The translations under genes and the position numbers were made by a program. Shown in pieces: positions 2,423-9,057 of a DNA stretch of 9,057 nt (within the stretch, counting starts at the first letter, position 1; every line of letters begins with the position of its first letter). This DNA is from Candidatus Lindowiibacteriota bacterium (GTDB taxonomy: Bacteria; Lindowbacteria; 2-12-FULL-62-27). The stretch covers positions 1 through 9,057 of the forward strand of contig JAHFCY010000132.1 in the NCBI GenBank assembly GCA_023249255.1, written 5' to 3'. The notes under the pieces were generated by a model. The model saw nothing but the letters and a program-made list of their open reading frames with translations. It made no database searches and was not told the DNA's origin.

Positions 2423-3397
2423 ATGGATTTGTCACAGTCCATCGTCTCGAAACTGGTCCCGAAATTTCGCGGCCGGAAAATTCTCGTCATCGGCGATTTT
2501 ATCCTCGACCACTTTGTGTGGGGCGACGTCGAACGGATTTCGCCCGAGGCGCCGGTGCCGGTGGTGGACGTCCGCGAGGAATCCTATCGTCTCGGCGGGG
2601 CGCTCAATGTCGCGGCGAATCTGGCGGCTCTCGGCGCCAAACCATCGGCCGTCGGAATTCTCGGCGAGGACGTTTTCGCCGATCAGGTTCGGCGGCTCGC
2701 GGAGTCGAACGGCATCACGCTGAAGGCGGTGACAAGCCTCGACAGGCCGACCATCCGCAAGACGCGGATTTTGGGCGGAAGCCAGCAGATGGTGCGGATC
2801 GACCGCGAGGTGCGCGGCAAACCCGACGCCGAAACGATTGCGGGATTGATGCGGTACATTCTCGATTCGCTGAAATCGACCAACGCGATCATCGTGTCGG
2901 ATTACGCCAAGGGCGTGATCCAGAAGACGGTACTGAACGGGTTTGTGCCGAAAGCCAATCACGCCGGTATTCCCATCGTCGCCGATCCCAAAGTGCAAAA
3001 TTTCTGGTCGTTCCGGAACGTGACGCTCCTCACGCCGAACACGAAAGAGGCCGGCGAGGCTCTGGACCGAAAGTTGAAAACCGAAGCGGATATCGAGTCG
3101 GCGGGGCGGGCAATCCTGAACCGTCTTCATCTCAAGGCACTTCTGATCACCCGCGGCGAACACGGCATGAGCCTCATCGAACCGCACAATCGGGTCACGC
3201 ATATTCCGACGCGCGCGCAGGAGGTGTTCGACGTGACGGGCGCCGGCGACACCGTTACGGCGGTGACGGCGCTCGGACTTGCGGCCGGCCTGTCGATGCA
3301 TCTCTCGCTGGAACTTGCGAATCTTGCGGCGGGGATCGTGGTCGGCAAAGTCGGCACCGCGGTCGTGACGCCGCAGGAATTGATCGCCGCCGTCTGA
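2423..3397 (+). CDS. rfaE1: D-glycero-beta-D-manno-heptose-7-phosphate kinase (HldE1/RfaE1, PfkB family)
   Basis: The product phosphorylates D-glycero-D-manno-heptose 7-phosphate at C1, a cytosolic step toward ADP-heptose for the LPS inner core. From ATG 2423 the protein is 324 residues, normal for a stand-alone kinase domain. VIGDFILDHFVWG (22-34), RISPEAPVPVVDV (38-50) and RLGGALNVAANL (56-67) are typical of RfaE1, and the PfkB catalytic GAGDT with its general-base Asp lies at 273-277. The start is debatable: ATG 2294 has GGAGAG seven bases upstream and adds 43 residues, but those resemble nothing in the family and overlie the inverted-repeat segment; ATG 2423 has no evident Shine-Dalgarno but gives the usual N-terminus. 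The fused adenylyltransferase gene follows after five bases. In many bacteria kinase and adenylyltransferase form one HldE protein; here they are separate. Confidence 0.92.
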   Translation: MDLSQSIVSKLVPKFRGRKILVIGDFILDHFVWGDVERISPEAPVPVVDVREESYRLGGALNVAANLAALGAKPSAVGILGEDVFADQVRRLAESNGITLKAVTSLDRPTIRKTRILGGSQQMVRIDREVRGKPDAETIAGLMRYILDSLKSTNAIIVSDYAKGVIQKTVLNGFVPKANHAGIPIVADPKVQNFWSFRNVTLLTPNTKEAGEALDRKLKTEADIESAGRAILNRLHLKALLITRGEHGMSLIEPHNRVTHIPTRAQEVFDVTGAGDTVTAVTALGLAAGLSMHLSLELANLAAGIVVGKVGTAVVTPQELIAAV

Positions 3398-3402
3398 CGC
3401 CT

Positions 3403-4671
3403 GTGCGATCCTCCAAGGTCGTCGGGCTTTCGGCGCTCCTCGGCCGACTCCGCCGCATTCGTCGCGGGAAAAAAATCGTTTTCACCAATGGATGTTTCGA
3501 CCTGATTCACCGCGGCCATGCCGATTATCTGTCCAGGGCGCGGTCACTCGGCGACACTCTCGTCGTCGGTATCAACACCGATTCGAGCGTACGGCGGCTG
3601 AAAGACGCGGGGCGGCCGATCTTGCCGCTGGCCGACCGGCAGGCGTTGCTCTCGGCGCTGGAATGCGTCGATTACGTTGTACCCTTCGCCGGCGACACGC
3701 CGATTCATCTCATCCGGGCGATTCGGCCGGACGTGCTGGTCAAGGGCGCAGACTACTCGCAGGACCGGATCGTCGGCGCGGATGTTGTGCGGGCCGGCGG
3801 CGGGCGTGTTGTGCGAATCAAACTCACGGCGGGACGAAGTACCTCCGGAATCATCCGGCAAATTCGCGCGATGCGCGCGATGTCGGCGCGCGGGAGCAAC
3901 GACCGGGTACTCGTCGTCATTCCGGCGCGATACGGTTCGACGAGGTTTTTGGGCAAGGCGCTGGCGGATATGGGCGGCAAATCCGTGCTCCATCGCGTCT
4001 TTGAGCAGGCGCAAAAGGCTTCAGCTGGTGAATGGCACGTGATCATCGCGACAGACGACCGGCGAATTTTCGAGGCGGCGCGGTCGTTCGGGGCCGAGGT
4101 CATGATGACGTCGGCGGCTTGCAGGAGCGGATCGGACCGCTGTGCCGAAATCGCCCGGAAAATTCCGGACGCGTCGATCATCGTCAATCTTCAGGGCGAC
4201 GAACCGTTTCAGCCGCCTGAAAATATCAGGCTCGCCGTACAGACGCTGCTTGATTCGGATTGTCCGGTCGCAACACTGGCGGCACGCTGTCCCAAAAAAG
4301 ATATTTCCAATCCGAACGTCGCCAAAGTCGCTCTGTCCCCTACCCGCCGCAATGGCGGGGTCGGCCGGGCGGTTTTTTTCTCGAGAAATCCGATTCCGTT
4401 TTATCGCGGTGTGGCGAACCAGACGTCTCAGGTGTATTTCAAACACATCGGCCTCTACGTATTTCGCCGGGACTTTTTGATGGAATTTTCCAAATGGAAG
4501 GAGACCGCGCTCGAACGCGCTGAAAAACTCGAACAGCTTCGAATCCTCGAGCACGGCCGATCCATCGCCGTCGCCGTCACGAAAAAAGATTCGATGGGAA
4601 TCGACACGCCGGAGGATCTTCGCCGGGCGCGAAAAATGCTTCTGATTGACAAACGGCCCCGAAAGGACTAA
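3403..4671 (+). CDS. Fusion: heptose-1-phosphate adenylyltransferase (HldE2) + CMP-Kdo synthetase (KdsB)
   Basis: One uninterrupted frame of 422 residues from GTG 3403 carries two enzymes. Residues about 22-154 are an HldE2/RfaE2 nucleotidyltransferase: GCFDLIHRGH with the HxGH site (36-39), then GINTDSSVRRLKDAGRP, RPDVLVKGADY and the GRSTSGII end motif (144-151). Residues 168-422 are a full KdsB: VIPARYGSTR (172-181), QGDEP (264-268), KHIGLYVFRRDF, EKLEQLRILEHG and GIDTPEDLRRA. The first would make ADP-heptose, the second CMP-Kdo, both donors for the LPS core. The linker (155-167) is about a dozen residues and includes Met157 and Met160, so internal initiation of a separate KdsB is conceivable, although no Shine-Dalgarno is seen there. 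The KdsB motif normally written R-L/F-P-G-K-P-L reads RFLGKAL. The GTG start also lacks a clear Shine-Dalgarno. Domain assignments are firm; functional fusion is inferred from the open frame. Confidence 0.9.
   Translation: MRSSKVVGLSALLGRLRRIRRGKKIVFTNGCFDLIHRGHADYLSRARSLGDTLVVGINTDSSVRRLKDAGRPILPLADRQALLSALECVDYVVPFAGDTPIHLIRAIRPDVLVKGADYSQDRIVGADVVRAGGGRVVRIKLTAGRSTSGIIRQIRAMRAMSARGSNDRVLVVIPARYGSTRFLGKALADMGGKSVLHRVFEQAQKASAGEWHVIIATDDRRIFEAARSFGAEVMMTSAACRSGSDRCAEIARKIPDASIIVNLQGDEPFQPPENIRLAVQTLLDSDCPVATLAARCPKKDISNPNVAKVALSPTRRNGGVGRAVFFSRNPIPFYRGVANQTSQVYFKHIGLYVFRRDFLMEFSKWKETALERAEKLEQLRILEHGRSIAVAVTKKDSMGIDTPEDLRRARKMLLIDKRPRKD
3865..3882 (+). repeat. 9-bp tandem repeat at the HldE2-KdsB junction
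   Basis: CGCGCGATG occurs twice in direct succession (3865-3873, 3874-3882) and encodes Arg-Ala-Met twice in the linker between the two enzymes. Each copy ends in an in-frame ATG. A slippage duplication at a former gene boundary is one explanation. Confidence 0.7.
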
Positions 4672-4749: not shown

Positions 4750-5736
4750 ATGAGCATCGACGTTCGGGGAATTGAATCGAGAGTCCGGGAACAAGCCGGG
4801 GTTCTTCAGCGGATCGTTTCCGAAGTCGACAAAGTCATGGTCGGCCAGCGGCCGCTGATCGAGCGGTTGTTGATCGGTCTTCTGGCCGGCGGGCATGTCC
4901 TGGTGGAGGGCGTGCCGGGACTGGCCAAAACAACGGCGGTCAAAACCATGGCGGCCGCTTTGAAACTCCATTTCCAACGCATCCAGTTCACGCCTGATCT
5001 TCTGCCTGCCGACCTCATCGGCACGCTGATTTTCAATCCGAAAACGGGAGAATTCACCACGCGGCGCGGGCCGGTGTTTGCCAACGTGATTCTGGCCGAC
5101 GAGATCAATCGCGCGCCGGGGAAAGTCCAGTCGGCCCTGCTTGAGGCGATGCAGGAAAGACAGGTGACGATCGGAACCGAGACGTTCAAACTGCCGGCGC
5201 CGTTTCTGGTCATGGCGACGCAAAATCCGATCGAGCAGGAAGGCACGTATCCATTGCCGGAAGCGCAGATCGACCGGTTCATGCTCAAAGTCAAAGTCAC
5301 GTATCCGTCGTTCGACGAGGAGCGGAAGATCATGGACCGGCAGACCGAAGGCGCAGCGGCGGATGTCCTGCCGGCCGTCTCGGCCGACGAGATCGCGGCG
5401 TTGCAACAGCTCTCAAGCTCCATCTACGTGGACGAAAAAGTCAAAACGTACATGCTCGACATTGTCTTTGCGACCCGCGATCCGAAAAAGTACAACCTCG
5501 ATCTGGCGCCGCTCATCGCATACGGCGCAAGCCCCCGCGCGTCGATTTACCTGAACCTTGCGGCCCGGGCGCACGCATTTTTGGACGGGCGCGGGTACGT
5601 CACGCCGCACGACGTGAAATCGATTTCTATGGACGTCCTGCGTCACCGCGTGATCGTTTCGTACGAAGCCGAGGCGGAAGGATTAAACTCGGAATCGGTC
5701 CTGCAGAAAATCATCGACAACCTGACTGTTCCCTGA
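4750..5736 (+). CDS. moxR: MoxR-family AAA+ ATPase
   Basis: This is a cytosolic AAA+ ATPase of the MoxR type, a family thought to act as chaperones that remodel or activate VWA-domain partners. The 328 residues are full length. Walker A is GVPGLAKT (54-61), Walker B VILADE (113-118) followed by INRAP, and sensor 1 lies in ATQNPIEQEGTYPLPEAQ (from 156) with the D-R-F that follows. The C-terminal lid domain runs to about residue 328 with the family-typical LIAYGASPRAS. ATG 4750 has GGAGG nine bases upstream (4736-4740). The gene leads a run of DUF58, DUF4381-like and VWA genes, the standard MoxR/Bat arrangement, and the next gene starts eight bases after its stop. Its precise client cannot be read from the sequence; the neighbouring VWA proteins are the obvious candidates. 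Confidence 0.94.
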   Translation: MSIDVRGIESRVREQAGVLQRIVSEVDKVMVGQRPLIERLLIGLLAGGHVLVEGVPGLAKTTAVKTMAAALKLHFQRIQFTPDLLPADLIGTLIFNPKTGEFTTRRGPVFANVILADEINRAPGKVQSALLEAMQERQVTIGTETFKLPAPFLVMATQNPIEQEGTYPLPEAQIDRFMLKVKVTYPSFDEERKIMDRQTEGAAADVLPAVSADEIAALQQLSSSIYVDEKVKTYMLDIVFATRDPKKYNLDLAPLIAYGASPRASIYLNLAARAHAFLDGRGYVTPHDVKSISMDVLRHRVIVSYEAEAEGLNSESVLQKIIDNLTVP

Positions 5737-5748
5737 CCGGCGGGATGA
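5734..5748 (+). repeat. 15-bp motif TGACCGGCGGGATGA at the moxR/DUF58 junction
   Basis: The motif contains the moxR stop and the start codon of the DUF58 gene. The identical 15 bases recur at 8146-8160 at the BatA/BatB junction, and a one-mismatch copy lies on the minus strand at 959-945 spanning the argC ATG. It may be a favoured initiation context, a repeat remnant, or chance. Confidence 0.4.
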
Positions 5749-6635
5749 CCGAAGAAAAACAGCGCGAGCTTCTCCGAAAAGTCCGGCGGATTCAGATCCG
5801 CACGGCCCGGCTCATCCGGGACCTCTTCGGCGGCCAGTACCACAGCGCGTTCAAGGGCAGGGGCATTGCATTTTCGGAAGTACGCGAATACTCGCCGGGC
5901 GATGACATCCGTTCCATCGACTGGAACGTCACGGCCCGGATGAGCGCGCCGTACGTGAAGCAATTTGTCGAGGAACGGGAACTCACGCTCATGCTGATCG
6001 TCGACATCAGCCGGTCGGGGAGGTTTGGATCGGGATCGGCAAGCAAGCGGGACCGGGCGGCGGAACTGGCGGCCATCCTCGCGTTCTCGGCCATTCAGAA
6101 CAACGATCGTGTCGGGCTGATTCTGTTCACCGACCGGGTGGAACTTTACATTCCGCCGCGCAAGGGATCGGCCCACGCGCTGCGTCTCGTCCGTGACCTG
6201 CTTTTTTTTGAGCCGGCCGGCCGCGGCACGAGCATCCGGACGGCGCTCGATTTTTTCAATCGCGTGATTCGGCGGCGCGCCGTTGCTTTTTTAATTTCGG
6301 ACTTTCAGGCGCCCGACACGTTTGAGGCTCTGCCGATCACCCGCAACCGCCACGATCTGGTGGCCGCGCGAATTTATGATCCGTTCGAACAATCCTGGCC
6401 GAAAATCGGACTCATGGAGCTTGAAGATCTGGAAACCGGCCGGGGGTTCCTTTTTGACACGTCGTCGCGGCGCGCGGCGGAGGCGCTGCGGGATTCGGAG
6501 GCCGCGTTTTGGGAGGATGCAACCGCGAAGTTTCGATCGCTGAAACTCGATGTGCTGTCTTTTCGGACCGACCAGTCTGTGGTCGATCCCCTGCGTCGGT
6601 TTTTTTATCTTCGGCGGCGGAGGAAATCGCGGTGA
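5745..6635 (+). CDS. DUF58 domain protein (VWA-like), MoxR-associated
   Basis: This cytosolic protein has no membrane segment and belongs to the DUF58 family that accompanies MoxR ATPases; its biochemical role is not established. Diagnostic features in the 296 residues are LLRKVRRIQIRTARL (9-23), GQYHSAFKGRG (30-40), the signature REYSPGDDIRSIDWN (47-61), YVKQFVEERELT (70-81), and a VWA-like metal-site motif D-I-S-R-S (87-91). LISDFQAP later in the protein corresponds to the conserved D-F region. ATG 5745 lies eight bases after the moxR stop. The C-terminal end is very basic (RRRRKSR). Its stop overlaps the next start as GTGA, so it is probably coupled to the DUF4381-like gene. Confidence 0.92.
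   Translation: MTEEKQRELLRKVRRIQIRTARLIRDLFGGQYHSAFKGRGIAFSEVREYSPGDDIRSIDWNVTARMSAPYVKQFVEERELTLMLIVDISRSGRFGSGSASKRDRAAELAAILAFSAIQNNDRVGLILFTDRVELYIPPRKGSAHALRLVRDLLFFEPAGRGTSIRTALDFFNRVIRRRAVAFLISDFQAPDTFEALPITRNRHDLVAARIYDPFEQSWPKIGLMELEDLETGRGFLFDTSSRRAAEALRDSEAAFWEDATAKFRSLKLDVLSFRTDQSVVDPLRRFFYLRRRRKSR
6619..6623 (+). promoter_or_regulatory. Ribosome binding site deciding the start of the DUF4381-like gene
   Basis: GGAGG lies in the last codons of the DUF58 gene, eight bases before GTG 6632. The same frame has an earlier ATG at 6509 but without comparable support, so the GTG is preferred. Confidence 0.6.
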
Positions 6636-7159
6636 CAGACTGGAGCCAATTCAAGGACTTGCGTCCGGAACGGCACGCGCCGTTTCACATTCCGTGGTTG
6701 TGGCTGGTCGCGGCGCTTGCGGCAGCCGCCGCATTCTGGGCATGGCGGCGATACCGGCCTCACCGAACATGGGTGGAACCGCCCAAACCCGCGCACGTCG
6801 TTGCCGAGATCGAACTGGACCGTCTCCTGCGTGAAGGGTTGCTCGACCAGGGGGAACTCGACGCGTTTGTGACGCGCCTCTCGGGCATTTTGCGCAGATA
6901 CATCGAAAACCGGTTCCATCTGCACGCGCCGGAGCGCACGACCGAGGAATTTTACGACGACCTGAAACAATCCGGGGCGCTGGACCAGGTCTGGAAAAAC
7001 GCCATCATGGAAATTTTGCGGCAATCTGATCTCGTCAAATTCGCCGCCGAGTGGATCGGGCGGGAGAGCGCGATGGAAATTTTGAACCGTATCCGGACGT
7101 TCGTGCGCGAGACAAAGGCCGTTGAGGGAAATGAAAAACCGGAGGCGAAAGCCGCATGA
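6632..7159 (+). CDS. DUF4381-like small membrane protein of the Bat operon
   Basis: From GTG 6632 the product is 175 residues: a short N-terminus, one hydrophobic segment at about 21-38 (WLWLVAALAAAAAFWAW), a basic stop-transfer RRYRPHR, then a soluble helical domain with ELDAFVTRLSGILRRYIENRF and a QSDLVKFA motif. This layout is typical of the small DUF4381-like proteins that sit between DUF58 and BatA genes; I assign the family by layout and motif style, not by search. The charge pattern suggests that the C-terminal domain is cytoplasmic. GTG overlaps the DUF58 stop (GTGA) and the stop overlaps the BatA start (ATGA), so expression is likely coupled to both. An upstream ATG at 6509 would add 41 residues fully overlapping DUF58 and is rejected. 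Function unknown; a structural partner of BatA/BatB is plausible. Confidence 0.8.
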   Translation: MTDWSQFKDLRPERHAPFHIPWLWLVAALAAAAAFWAWRRYRPHRTWVEPPKPAHVVAEIELDRLLREGLLDQGELDAFVTRLSGILRRYIENRFHLHAPERTTEEFYDDLKQSGALDQVWKNAIMEILRQSDLVKFAAEWIGRESAMEILNRIRTFVRETKAVEGNEKPEAKAA

Positions 7160-8148
7160 TGTTCCGCCATCCGATTTTTTTATGGCTGCTTCCGATCGCG
7201 CTGGTCCCGATCTATTTCGAATTCATCCGGCGGCGGGCCGGAAGTTCATTCGGATTTTCGGCGGCCGGCGAACCCGCAGCGGCGGGCAGGAGTCTTCGGG
7301 TGTTCGGGCGCAGGTCTCTGGCGGTCCTGCGGGCGGCGGCCATTGCGCTGGCGGTCATTGCGCTGGCCCGGCCGCAGTCCGGAGATGAGCAGTCGAAAGT
7401 CCATGTCGAAGGCATCGCCATTCAGCTTGTCGTCGACCAGTCCGGAAGCATGTCGCAGGAGGACATGGCGTACGAAGGCCGGCGGATGAGCCGGCTCGAA
7501 GCGGCACGCCGGGTGATCGACCGGTTCGTGAAAGGCCGGACGGACGATCTCATCGGCCTCACGACATTCAGCGCGTATCCCAACGAGGTCTGTCCGCTGA
7601 CCCTCGACTACGACCTGCTTTCAAAATTTTTCGAGCAGATCCGGCCGGACAATCTCTTCGGACAAACAGCCATTGGTGACGGCATCGTCTACGCCACGAA
7701 TCTCCTGAAGGAATCGACCGCCAGGAGCAAGGTCATGATCGTTCTGACTGACGGCGCGAACAATTTTGGCGTCACAAATCCGGTCGAGGCCGCCCGGATG
7801 GCGGCGCAGATCGGAATCAAAATCTACACGATCGGCATCGTCCCGACGCCCCAGGCCCAGTCAACTCTCGACTTTTTCTCGCGCCAGATATTTCGCCAGG
7901 GGTCGGACGTCGACGAGGACACATTGAAAAACATGGCTGAGGCCGCGCACGGCCGGTATTACGCCGCAAGCGACGGCGACAAGCTTGAAAAAATTTACGC
8001 TGAAATCAACCGGCTCGAAAAAACGGAGCACGTCACCGAGAAATTTCTGCAATACCGCGAACTGTATCCCGCACCGCTGTTCGCGTCCGTGGGCCTCACG
8101 GTGCTGGAGTCTCTGCTCGGCCTCACGGTGTTCCGGAAAAAACCATGA
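7156..8148 (+). CDS. batA: VWA-domain membrane protein, BatA-like
   Basis: The 330-residue product has the Bat layout: N-terminal membrane helix (about 7-24, FLWLLPIALVPIYFEF), second helix (about 54-71) ending in ALARPQ, a VWA domain, and a C-terminal hydrophobic segment (about 304-326). The metal-ion-dependent adhesion site is intact: D94-Q-S-G-S98, Thr171 in GQTAIGDG, and Asp199 in LTDG. CPLTLDYD and GIKIYTIGI are also typical. ATG 7156 overlaps the previous stop (ATGA) and has GGAGG ten bases upstream (7141-7145). The VWA domain should bind a divalent ion and mediate protein contacts, possibly with BatB and under MoxR control; Bat proteins have been linked to aerotolerance and envelope stress, but the role here is unproven. 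BatA versus BatB naming follows order and motif; paralogues are hard to separate by eye. Confidence 0.88.
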   Translation: MMFRHPIFLWLLPIALVPIYFEFIRRRAGSSFGFSAAGEPAAAGRSLRVFGRRSLAVLRAAAIALAVIALARPQSGDEQSKVHVEGIAIQLVVDQSGSMSQEDMAYEGRRMSRLEAARRVIDRFVKGRTDDLIGLTTFSAYPNEVCPLTLDYDLLSKFFEQIRPDNLFGQTAIGDGIVYATNLLKESTARSKVMIVLTDGANNFGVTNPVEAARMAAQIGIKIYTIGIVPTPQAQSTLDFFSRQIFRQGSDVDEDTLKNMAEAAHGRYYAASDGDKLEKIYAEINRLEKTEHVTEKFLQYRELYPAPLFASVGLTVLESLLGLTVFRKKP

Positions 8149-9057
8149 CCGGCGGGATGAACGCCGAATCGGAATTTCTCATCGCCAATCCCGAACGGCT
8201 CTGGCTGATCTGGGTGATCCCCGTCCTGTGCGCCTGCGCGTGGGCGGGATGGCGGTGGAGCCGGCGCGTGATCCTGAAACATTTTTCGGAGGACCTGGCG
8301 CGGCGGTTGTGCGGATCGGTCAGTTGGGCGCGGCGGTGGATCAAACTGGCCCTGCTCTGCGGGTCATTGTTTTTCTCCATTTTTGCGCTGGCCGACCCCA
8401 AATGGGGCGTGGCGGAACAAACAGTCCTGACGGGCGGGCGGGACATTTTGATTTTGCTCGACGTGTCAAAGAGCATGCTGGCAACGGACGTCGCGCCGTC
8501 GCGCCTTGAGCGCGTCAAGCTCGACATTCAAGACATGCTGGGCGTTTTAAAAGGCGACCGGATCGGACTGGTTGTCTTTGCCGGCACGCCTGTTTTGAAA
8601 TGCCCGCTGACGACTGATTACGGATTTTTTCGGCAGGTTCTGGCGCGCGTCGGAGTTCATTCGGTCACGCGCGGCGGAACGTTCATCGGCGATGCCATCC
8701 GCGAGGGGCTTCAGGCTTTCACCGACAAAATCCCGAACAACAAAGTCATGATCCTGATCAGCGACGGCGAGGATCAGGGAAGTTTTCCGCTGGAAGCCGC
8801 ACGGCTGGCGGCGGAACGCGGTATCCGGATATATACCGTGGGCGTGGGCGACCGGGACGTCGGCAGCCGGATTCTGGTCGAAGGCGAATACGTAAAGGAT
8901 GACGGTCAGGCGGTGTGGACAAAACTCAATCCGGAGGAATTGCGAAAAATTGCGGCGGAAACAAGCGGCGCCTATGTTCCCGCAGGTACTCGTTCGGTCG
9001 ACCTCGACAGGATTTTTCTTCAGAAAATCGCTTCGACCGGACAGGCCGAAGAGAGCG
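8145..9057 (+). CDS. batB: VWA-domain membrane protein, BatB-like, 3' end missing
   Basis: The frame is open from ATG 8145 to the right edge (304 residues seen). It shows an N-terminal helix (about 19-36, LWLIWVIPVLCACAWAGW), a second helix (about 66-83) ending in ALADPKWG, and a VWA domain with an intact metal site: D106-V-S108-K-S110, the Thr of GGTFIGDAI, and ISDGEDQG. LERVKLDI, LKGDRIGLVVFAG and CPLTTDYGFF match BatB-type proteins, as does the later GAYVPAG. The expected C-terminal helix is beyond the window. Two starts are possible: 8145 overlaps the BatA stop as ATGA; 8157 stands eight bases after that stop in the same 15-bp context used by the DUF58 gene and removes four residues. It probably works with BatA as an envelope-associated pair; TPR (BatC) and BatD genes would be expected downstream but cannot be seen. 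Confidence 0.88.
   Translation, partial: MTGGMNAESEFLIANPERLWLIWVIPVLCACAWAGWRWSRRVILKHFSEDLARRLCGSVSWARRWIKLALLCGSLFFSIFALADPKWGVAEQTVLTGGRDILILLDVSKSMLATDVAPSRLERVKLDIQDMLGVLKGDRIGLVVFAGTPVLKCPLTTDYGFFRQVLARVGVHSVTRGGTFIGDAIREGLQAFTDKIPNNKVMILISDGEDQGSFPLEAARLAAERGIRIYTVGVGDRDVGSRILVEGEYVKDDGQAVWTKLNPEELRKIAAETSGAYVPAGTRSVDLDRIFLQKIASTGQAEES
8146..8160 (+). repeat. Second copy of TGACCGGCGGGATGA, at the BatA/BatB junction
   Basis: These 15 bases are identical to 5734-5748. As in the first copy, the leading TGA is the upstream gene's stop and the internal ATG (8157) is a start candidate for the downstream gene. Confidence 0.4.

Follow-up and report, generated by a model that had tools for sequence, protein, structure and literature searches.

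The window, the whole 9,057-nucleotide stretch analysed here from a Candidatus Lindowiibacteriota genome, carries on its forward strand an hldE2::kdsB fusion gene (3403..4671), a single open frame of 422 aa that runs from a GTG at 3403, 5 bases past the hldE1 stop, to a TAA ending at 4671, without an internal stop. Its two domains are each full length and lie in tandem and in frame, far beyond chance expectation. A preliminary description had given the same coordinates and the same picture, two complete enzymes with their catalytic motifs and no stop between them, and it proves correct: the curated NCBIfam cut-offs are passed and the motifs are kept. It was equally right that the kinase is separate from HldE2, as hldE1 (2423..3397, forward strand) is a gene of its own that ends at 3397 and exceeds the TIGR02198 cut-off with 366.6 bits.

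The N-terminal half is a HldE2/HldC adenylyltransferase domain (residues 20-155; 3460..3867, forward strand), assigned by TIGR02199 (rfaE_dom_II) with 189.9 bits against a cut-off of 181.5 over profile positions 8-143 of 144. The bifunctional HldE model NF008454 reaches 176.5 bits, below its cut-off of 521, and covers the adenylyltransferase part only. The HxGH nucleotidyltransferase motif (H36-R-G-H39; 3508..3519, forward strand) and the TNGCFD nucleotide-binding motif are invariant in all 13 fused proteins aligned, the former at H36, G38 and H39. Judged by profile and motifs, this half would make ADP-heptose. The C-terminal half is a KdsB CMP-Kdo synthetase domain (residues 169-413; 3907..4641, forward strand), which would transfer CMP from CTP to Kdo, giving CMP-Kdo. 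TIGR00466 (kdsB) matches residues 170-406 with 204.7 bits against 155.2 (profile positions 4-240 of 241), and the KdsB subfamily model NF003952 is exceeded with 273.6 against 193, while the equivalog PRK05450.1-1 (NF003948) gives 214.4 bits, below its cut-off of 281; this half thus belongs to the KdsB class but not to its strictest equivalog. The Pfam families PF01467 and PF02348 agree with the NCBIfam assignment, and all 13 aligned fused proteins match both TIGR02199 and TIGR00466.

An AlphaFold2 monomer model (mean pLDDT 94.1, pTM 0.75) contains the two expected folds with a dip at the short linker between them (AMRAMSARGSNDR, residues 156-168; 3868..3906, forward strand), where the lowest junction pLDDT lies at 74-80 per block. 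In Foldseek searches KdsB structures come first (3oam, 1vic, 3k8d and others), with TMt values of 0.81-0.93 to most KdsB chains, consistent with a KdsB fold, followed by Burkholderia HldC (5x9q/5xf2), the best structural match of the HldE2 half. No solved structure matched the HldE2-KdsB pair as one chain. The two halves would fold as independent domains on the short linker, with two independent active sites.

Catalytic residues of the KdsB half and a second synthetase gene

In the alignment, the CTP loop of the fused KdsB (P174, R176, T180, R181 and K185; 3922..3957, forward strand) corresponds to the CTP-binding residues P8, R10, T14, R15 and K19 of Aquifex aeolicus KdsB (PMC3149649). The QGDEP motif with D266 (4192..4206, forward strand) and a second conserved aspartate, D401, do not vary among the 13 aligned fused proteins; by position they would be the two active-site aspartates described in PMC3149649, with D401 expected to hold Mg-A. 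The RFPGK loop of the window copy carries a Pro-to-Leu change (P183L); the proline is present in both relatives compared from the same family, G001 and G002, and varies in other fused proteins as well. The window copy also has a private in-frame insertion of about 21 bases (about 7 aa; 4342..4362, forward strand), which is found in none of the other 12 fused proteins, nor in the KdsB of G002. Its core is a small perfect palindrome, CCCGCC-GCAAT-GGCGGG (4343-4359). No repeat family is evident for the insertion: in the three genomes of the window's family, a search for it returned one other site, in the window's own genome, with one mismatch. A role of this hairpin as an internal terminator was rejected, its folding being no more stable than that of shuffled sequence (z -0.34).

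A second, stand-alone KdsB-type gene (L002:1525-2316, hereafter C306) is found in the window's genome; it passes the cut-offs and is 36% identical to the fused KdsB, so that the fusion need not be the sole source of CMP-Kdo. A KdsB-type paralogue is likewise present in G001 (C4), whereas G002 shows the operon copy only. As read from open reading frames, the neighbours of C306 are a dehydrogenase-like gene and a methyltransferase-like frame. This setting resembles a surface-polysaccharide cluster and suggests a KpsU-like role, and C306 is possibly a capsule or O-antigen enzyme of this kind. The private insertion, P183L and the paralogues in both genomes could be taken as signs of decay or specialisation in the KdsB half of the fusion, with C306 as the main source of CMP-Kdo. 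This is very unlikely, given that the CTP- and metal-binding residues are all kept, the frame is undamaged, the model confidence is high, C306 is only 36% identical and sits in a surface-polysaccharide-like setting, and G002 shows the operon copy alone.

Elsewhere in the same genome, one KdsA over the cut-off, one WaaA and several GT9 heptosyltransferase-family genes are encoded, so that both products of the fusion would have a likely user. A partial second HldE2 (L003:1-381, C271) was also observed at a contig end, beside a UbiD-like decarboxylase frame; no counterpart is listed in G001 or G002, and it is perhaps contamination of the draft genome.

Integrity of the junction

The preliminary description had considered an assembly error, with a stop or frameshift between 3860 and 3910. 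Between 3821 and 3960 none of the forward frames contains a TAA, TAG or TGA triplet, and the HldE2 frame, if shifted by one base, would continue to 4040 or 4002. A one-base indel therefore cannot conceal two normal genes, and an assembly frameshift is ruled out; only a miscalled stop codon, not a single-base indel, could produce a false fusion here. That an assembly or sequencing artefact joined two genes might be entertained for a metagenome-type draft (366 contigs, 88.7% complete, 3.9% contamination) with a relative, G002, in which the genes are two; but with a junction that no indel can account for, and with the same fusion carried by G001 and by genomes of two other phyla, this explanation is extremely improbable. 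The gene fusion in the assembly is real.

Three genomes, from three genera of one family, represent the phylum of the window genome: its own (G000), G001 and G002. G001, an independent assembly from another genus, has the same single-frame fusion, 63% identical over residues 10-418 and with a different linker. In G002, hldE2 and kdsB are two genes overlapping by TTGA (cgTTGAgc). The fusion is conserved in G001 but not in G002.

At the junction itself, a nine-base tandem repeat (GCGCGATGc/GCGCGATGt, GCGCGATGC GCGCGATGT, encoding Arg-Ala-Met twice) occupies 3864-3882 and may be a remnant of the event that removed the stop. Two ATG codons lie in frame within the linker (3871 and 3880); the one at 3880 matches the start of the stand-alone kdsB of G002, and MSAR, with which the stand-alone protein begins, is still present in the linker. 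It is conceivable that the fusion is made together with KdsB alone, with translation also starting inside the frame, at the former kdsB start (ATG 3880), so that the cell has both forms; the two ATG codons aligned with the G002 start, and a methionine at that place in G001, would fit such an arrangement. It is nonetheless unlikely, as a Shine-Dalgarno-like sequence is absent upstream (AAATTCGCGCGATGCGCGCG) and the linkers of several Armatimonadetes-group fusions lack methionine.

Distribution and repeated origin of the fusion

In a broad survey covering 386 genomes, with most families represented by one or a few, the single-frame fusion occurs in at least three (G000, G001 and G171 among the matches listed). 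A second sample took 101 genomes, evenly spread, from the phylum to which G060 and an Abditibacteriaceae genome (L037) belong, and includes the Armatimonadetes genome of L039. Here the fusion is found in at least 12 genomes, about 12% (G060, G066, G067, G072, G087, G101, G107, G108, G121, G126, G081 and G061, that of G061 being truncated by a contig end and that of G081 apparent only from the sequence of the region), and many others have hldE2 and kdsB side by side. G171, from another phylum, is fused, and G312, the only other genome compared from that phylum, has an adjacent pair. The architecture, which the preliminary description did not recognise as a common one, is therefore rare domain-wide but no one-off: it recurs in the Armatimonadetes/Abditibacteria group, and a third phylum has it too. 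No NCBIfam model spans HldE2 and KdsB together, and nothing relevant on a KdsB-HldE fusion was found among 5.39 million open-access papers searched; the arrangement may already be countable among UniProt/InterPro architectures.

The upstream side of the locus is widely shared: in most relatives an hldE1 orthologue precedes hldE2 and kdsB, whether these are fused or adjacent, and in most cases it does so directly. In four Armatimonadetes-group genomes (L193, L194, L192 and L185) kdsA directly follows the fusion, forming a compact operon for Kdo and heptose activation. Downstream in the window, positions 4750-9056 encode a MoxR ATPase, a DUF58-like protein and BatA- and BatB-like VWA proteins, in what looks like an operon of its own. 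In G001 a cytochrome-like gene follows the fusion instead, and the neighbourhood on this side is not conserved.

Phylogenies do not place the fused proteins together. They are dispersed over a KdsB tree with 85 rows, whose well-supported branches require no fewer than four changes of state. In a tree of 28 concatenated HldE2 and KdsB pairs, holding the 14 fused rows as one clade costs 213 log-likelihood units, and the AU test on these linked pairs rejects a single ancestral fusion (p-AU 4.7e-6). As no single clade unites the fused proteins, adjacent genes have fused, or split, several times. For the window's family, the tree unites G000 with the unfused G002 (99/80), but a single origin in a clade of G000 and G001 withstands the test (p=0.26); two separate fusions are possible, as is a single one followed by a fission in G002. 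The proposed starting point is an hldE1-hldE2-kdsB(-kdsA) operon with tightly packed or overlapping hldE2 and kdsB, in which the intervening stop codon would have been lost; bacteria retaining this gene order would have undergone such a loss on more than one occasion.

Known systems and proposed function

Each half of the protein is an ordinary, well-known enzyme, and it is the combination that differs from HldE, HldC alone and KdsB alone. HldE (RfaE), the heptose-7-phosphate kinase/heptose-1-phosphate adenylyltransferase, has the same adenylyltransferase domain in a two-domain enzyme, yet there it is joined to the kinase of its own pathway, whereas in the window the kinase is separate and the partner is KdsB. 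In the HldA and HldC system (e.g., Neisseria; PMC10221265) kinase and adenylyltransferase are on separate polypeptides, as in the window, but HldC stands alone, without a C-terminal KdsB. KdsB (L-CKS) shares with the window half the whole domain, the CTP loop, the QGDEP motif and the fold, but is normally a single-domain homodimer rather than part of a two-domain chain. KpsU-type CMP-Kdo synthetases are of the same family, and C306 may be of this sort, stand-alone and outside the operon, unlike the fused KdsB.

Fusions link enzymes whose outputs gain from being tied together. The gene probably encodes a genuine bifunctional ADP-heptose/CMP-Kdo enzyme, born by stop loss within an operon and supplying both donors in a fixed ratio, although both activities, like any advantage of joining the two enzymes, are predicted from the sequence. 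The main consequence would be a 1:1 supply of both activated inner-core sugars. Heptose and Kdo activation have no common intermediate, so channelling is not expected; donor coordination, as envisaged by the preliminary description, may go further than co-expression. Because CMP-Kdo is unstable, its half-life being 34 min at 25 C (PMC3149649), the fused enzyme might conceivably sit close to the enzymes that use its products, which may help. A bolder version, in which the repeatedly evolved synthase is a stoichiometric and spatial control point matching the inner-core donors, perhaps as a mixed oligomer holding unstable CMP-Kdo near its users, is tentative and rather doubtful.

Annotation pipelines that name such a protein by one of its domains may call the other activity missing. 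The fusion recurs in three lineages of phylum level, two of which are tiny and uncultured. This suggests that these poorly known outer-membrane bacteria keep the activation of heptose in step with that of Kdo, and it supports the presence in them of an LPS core containing both sugars.
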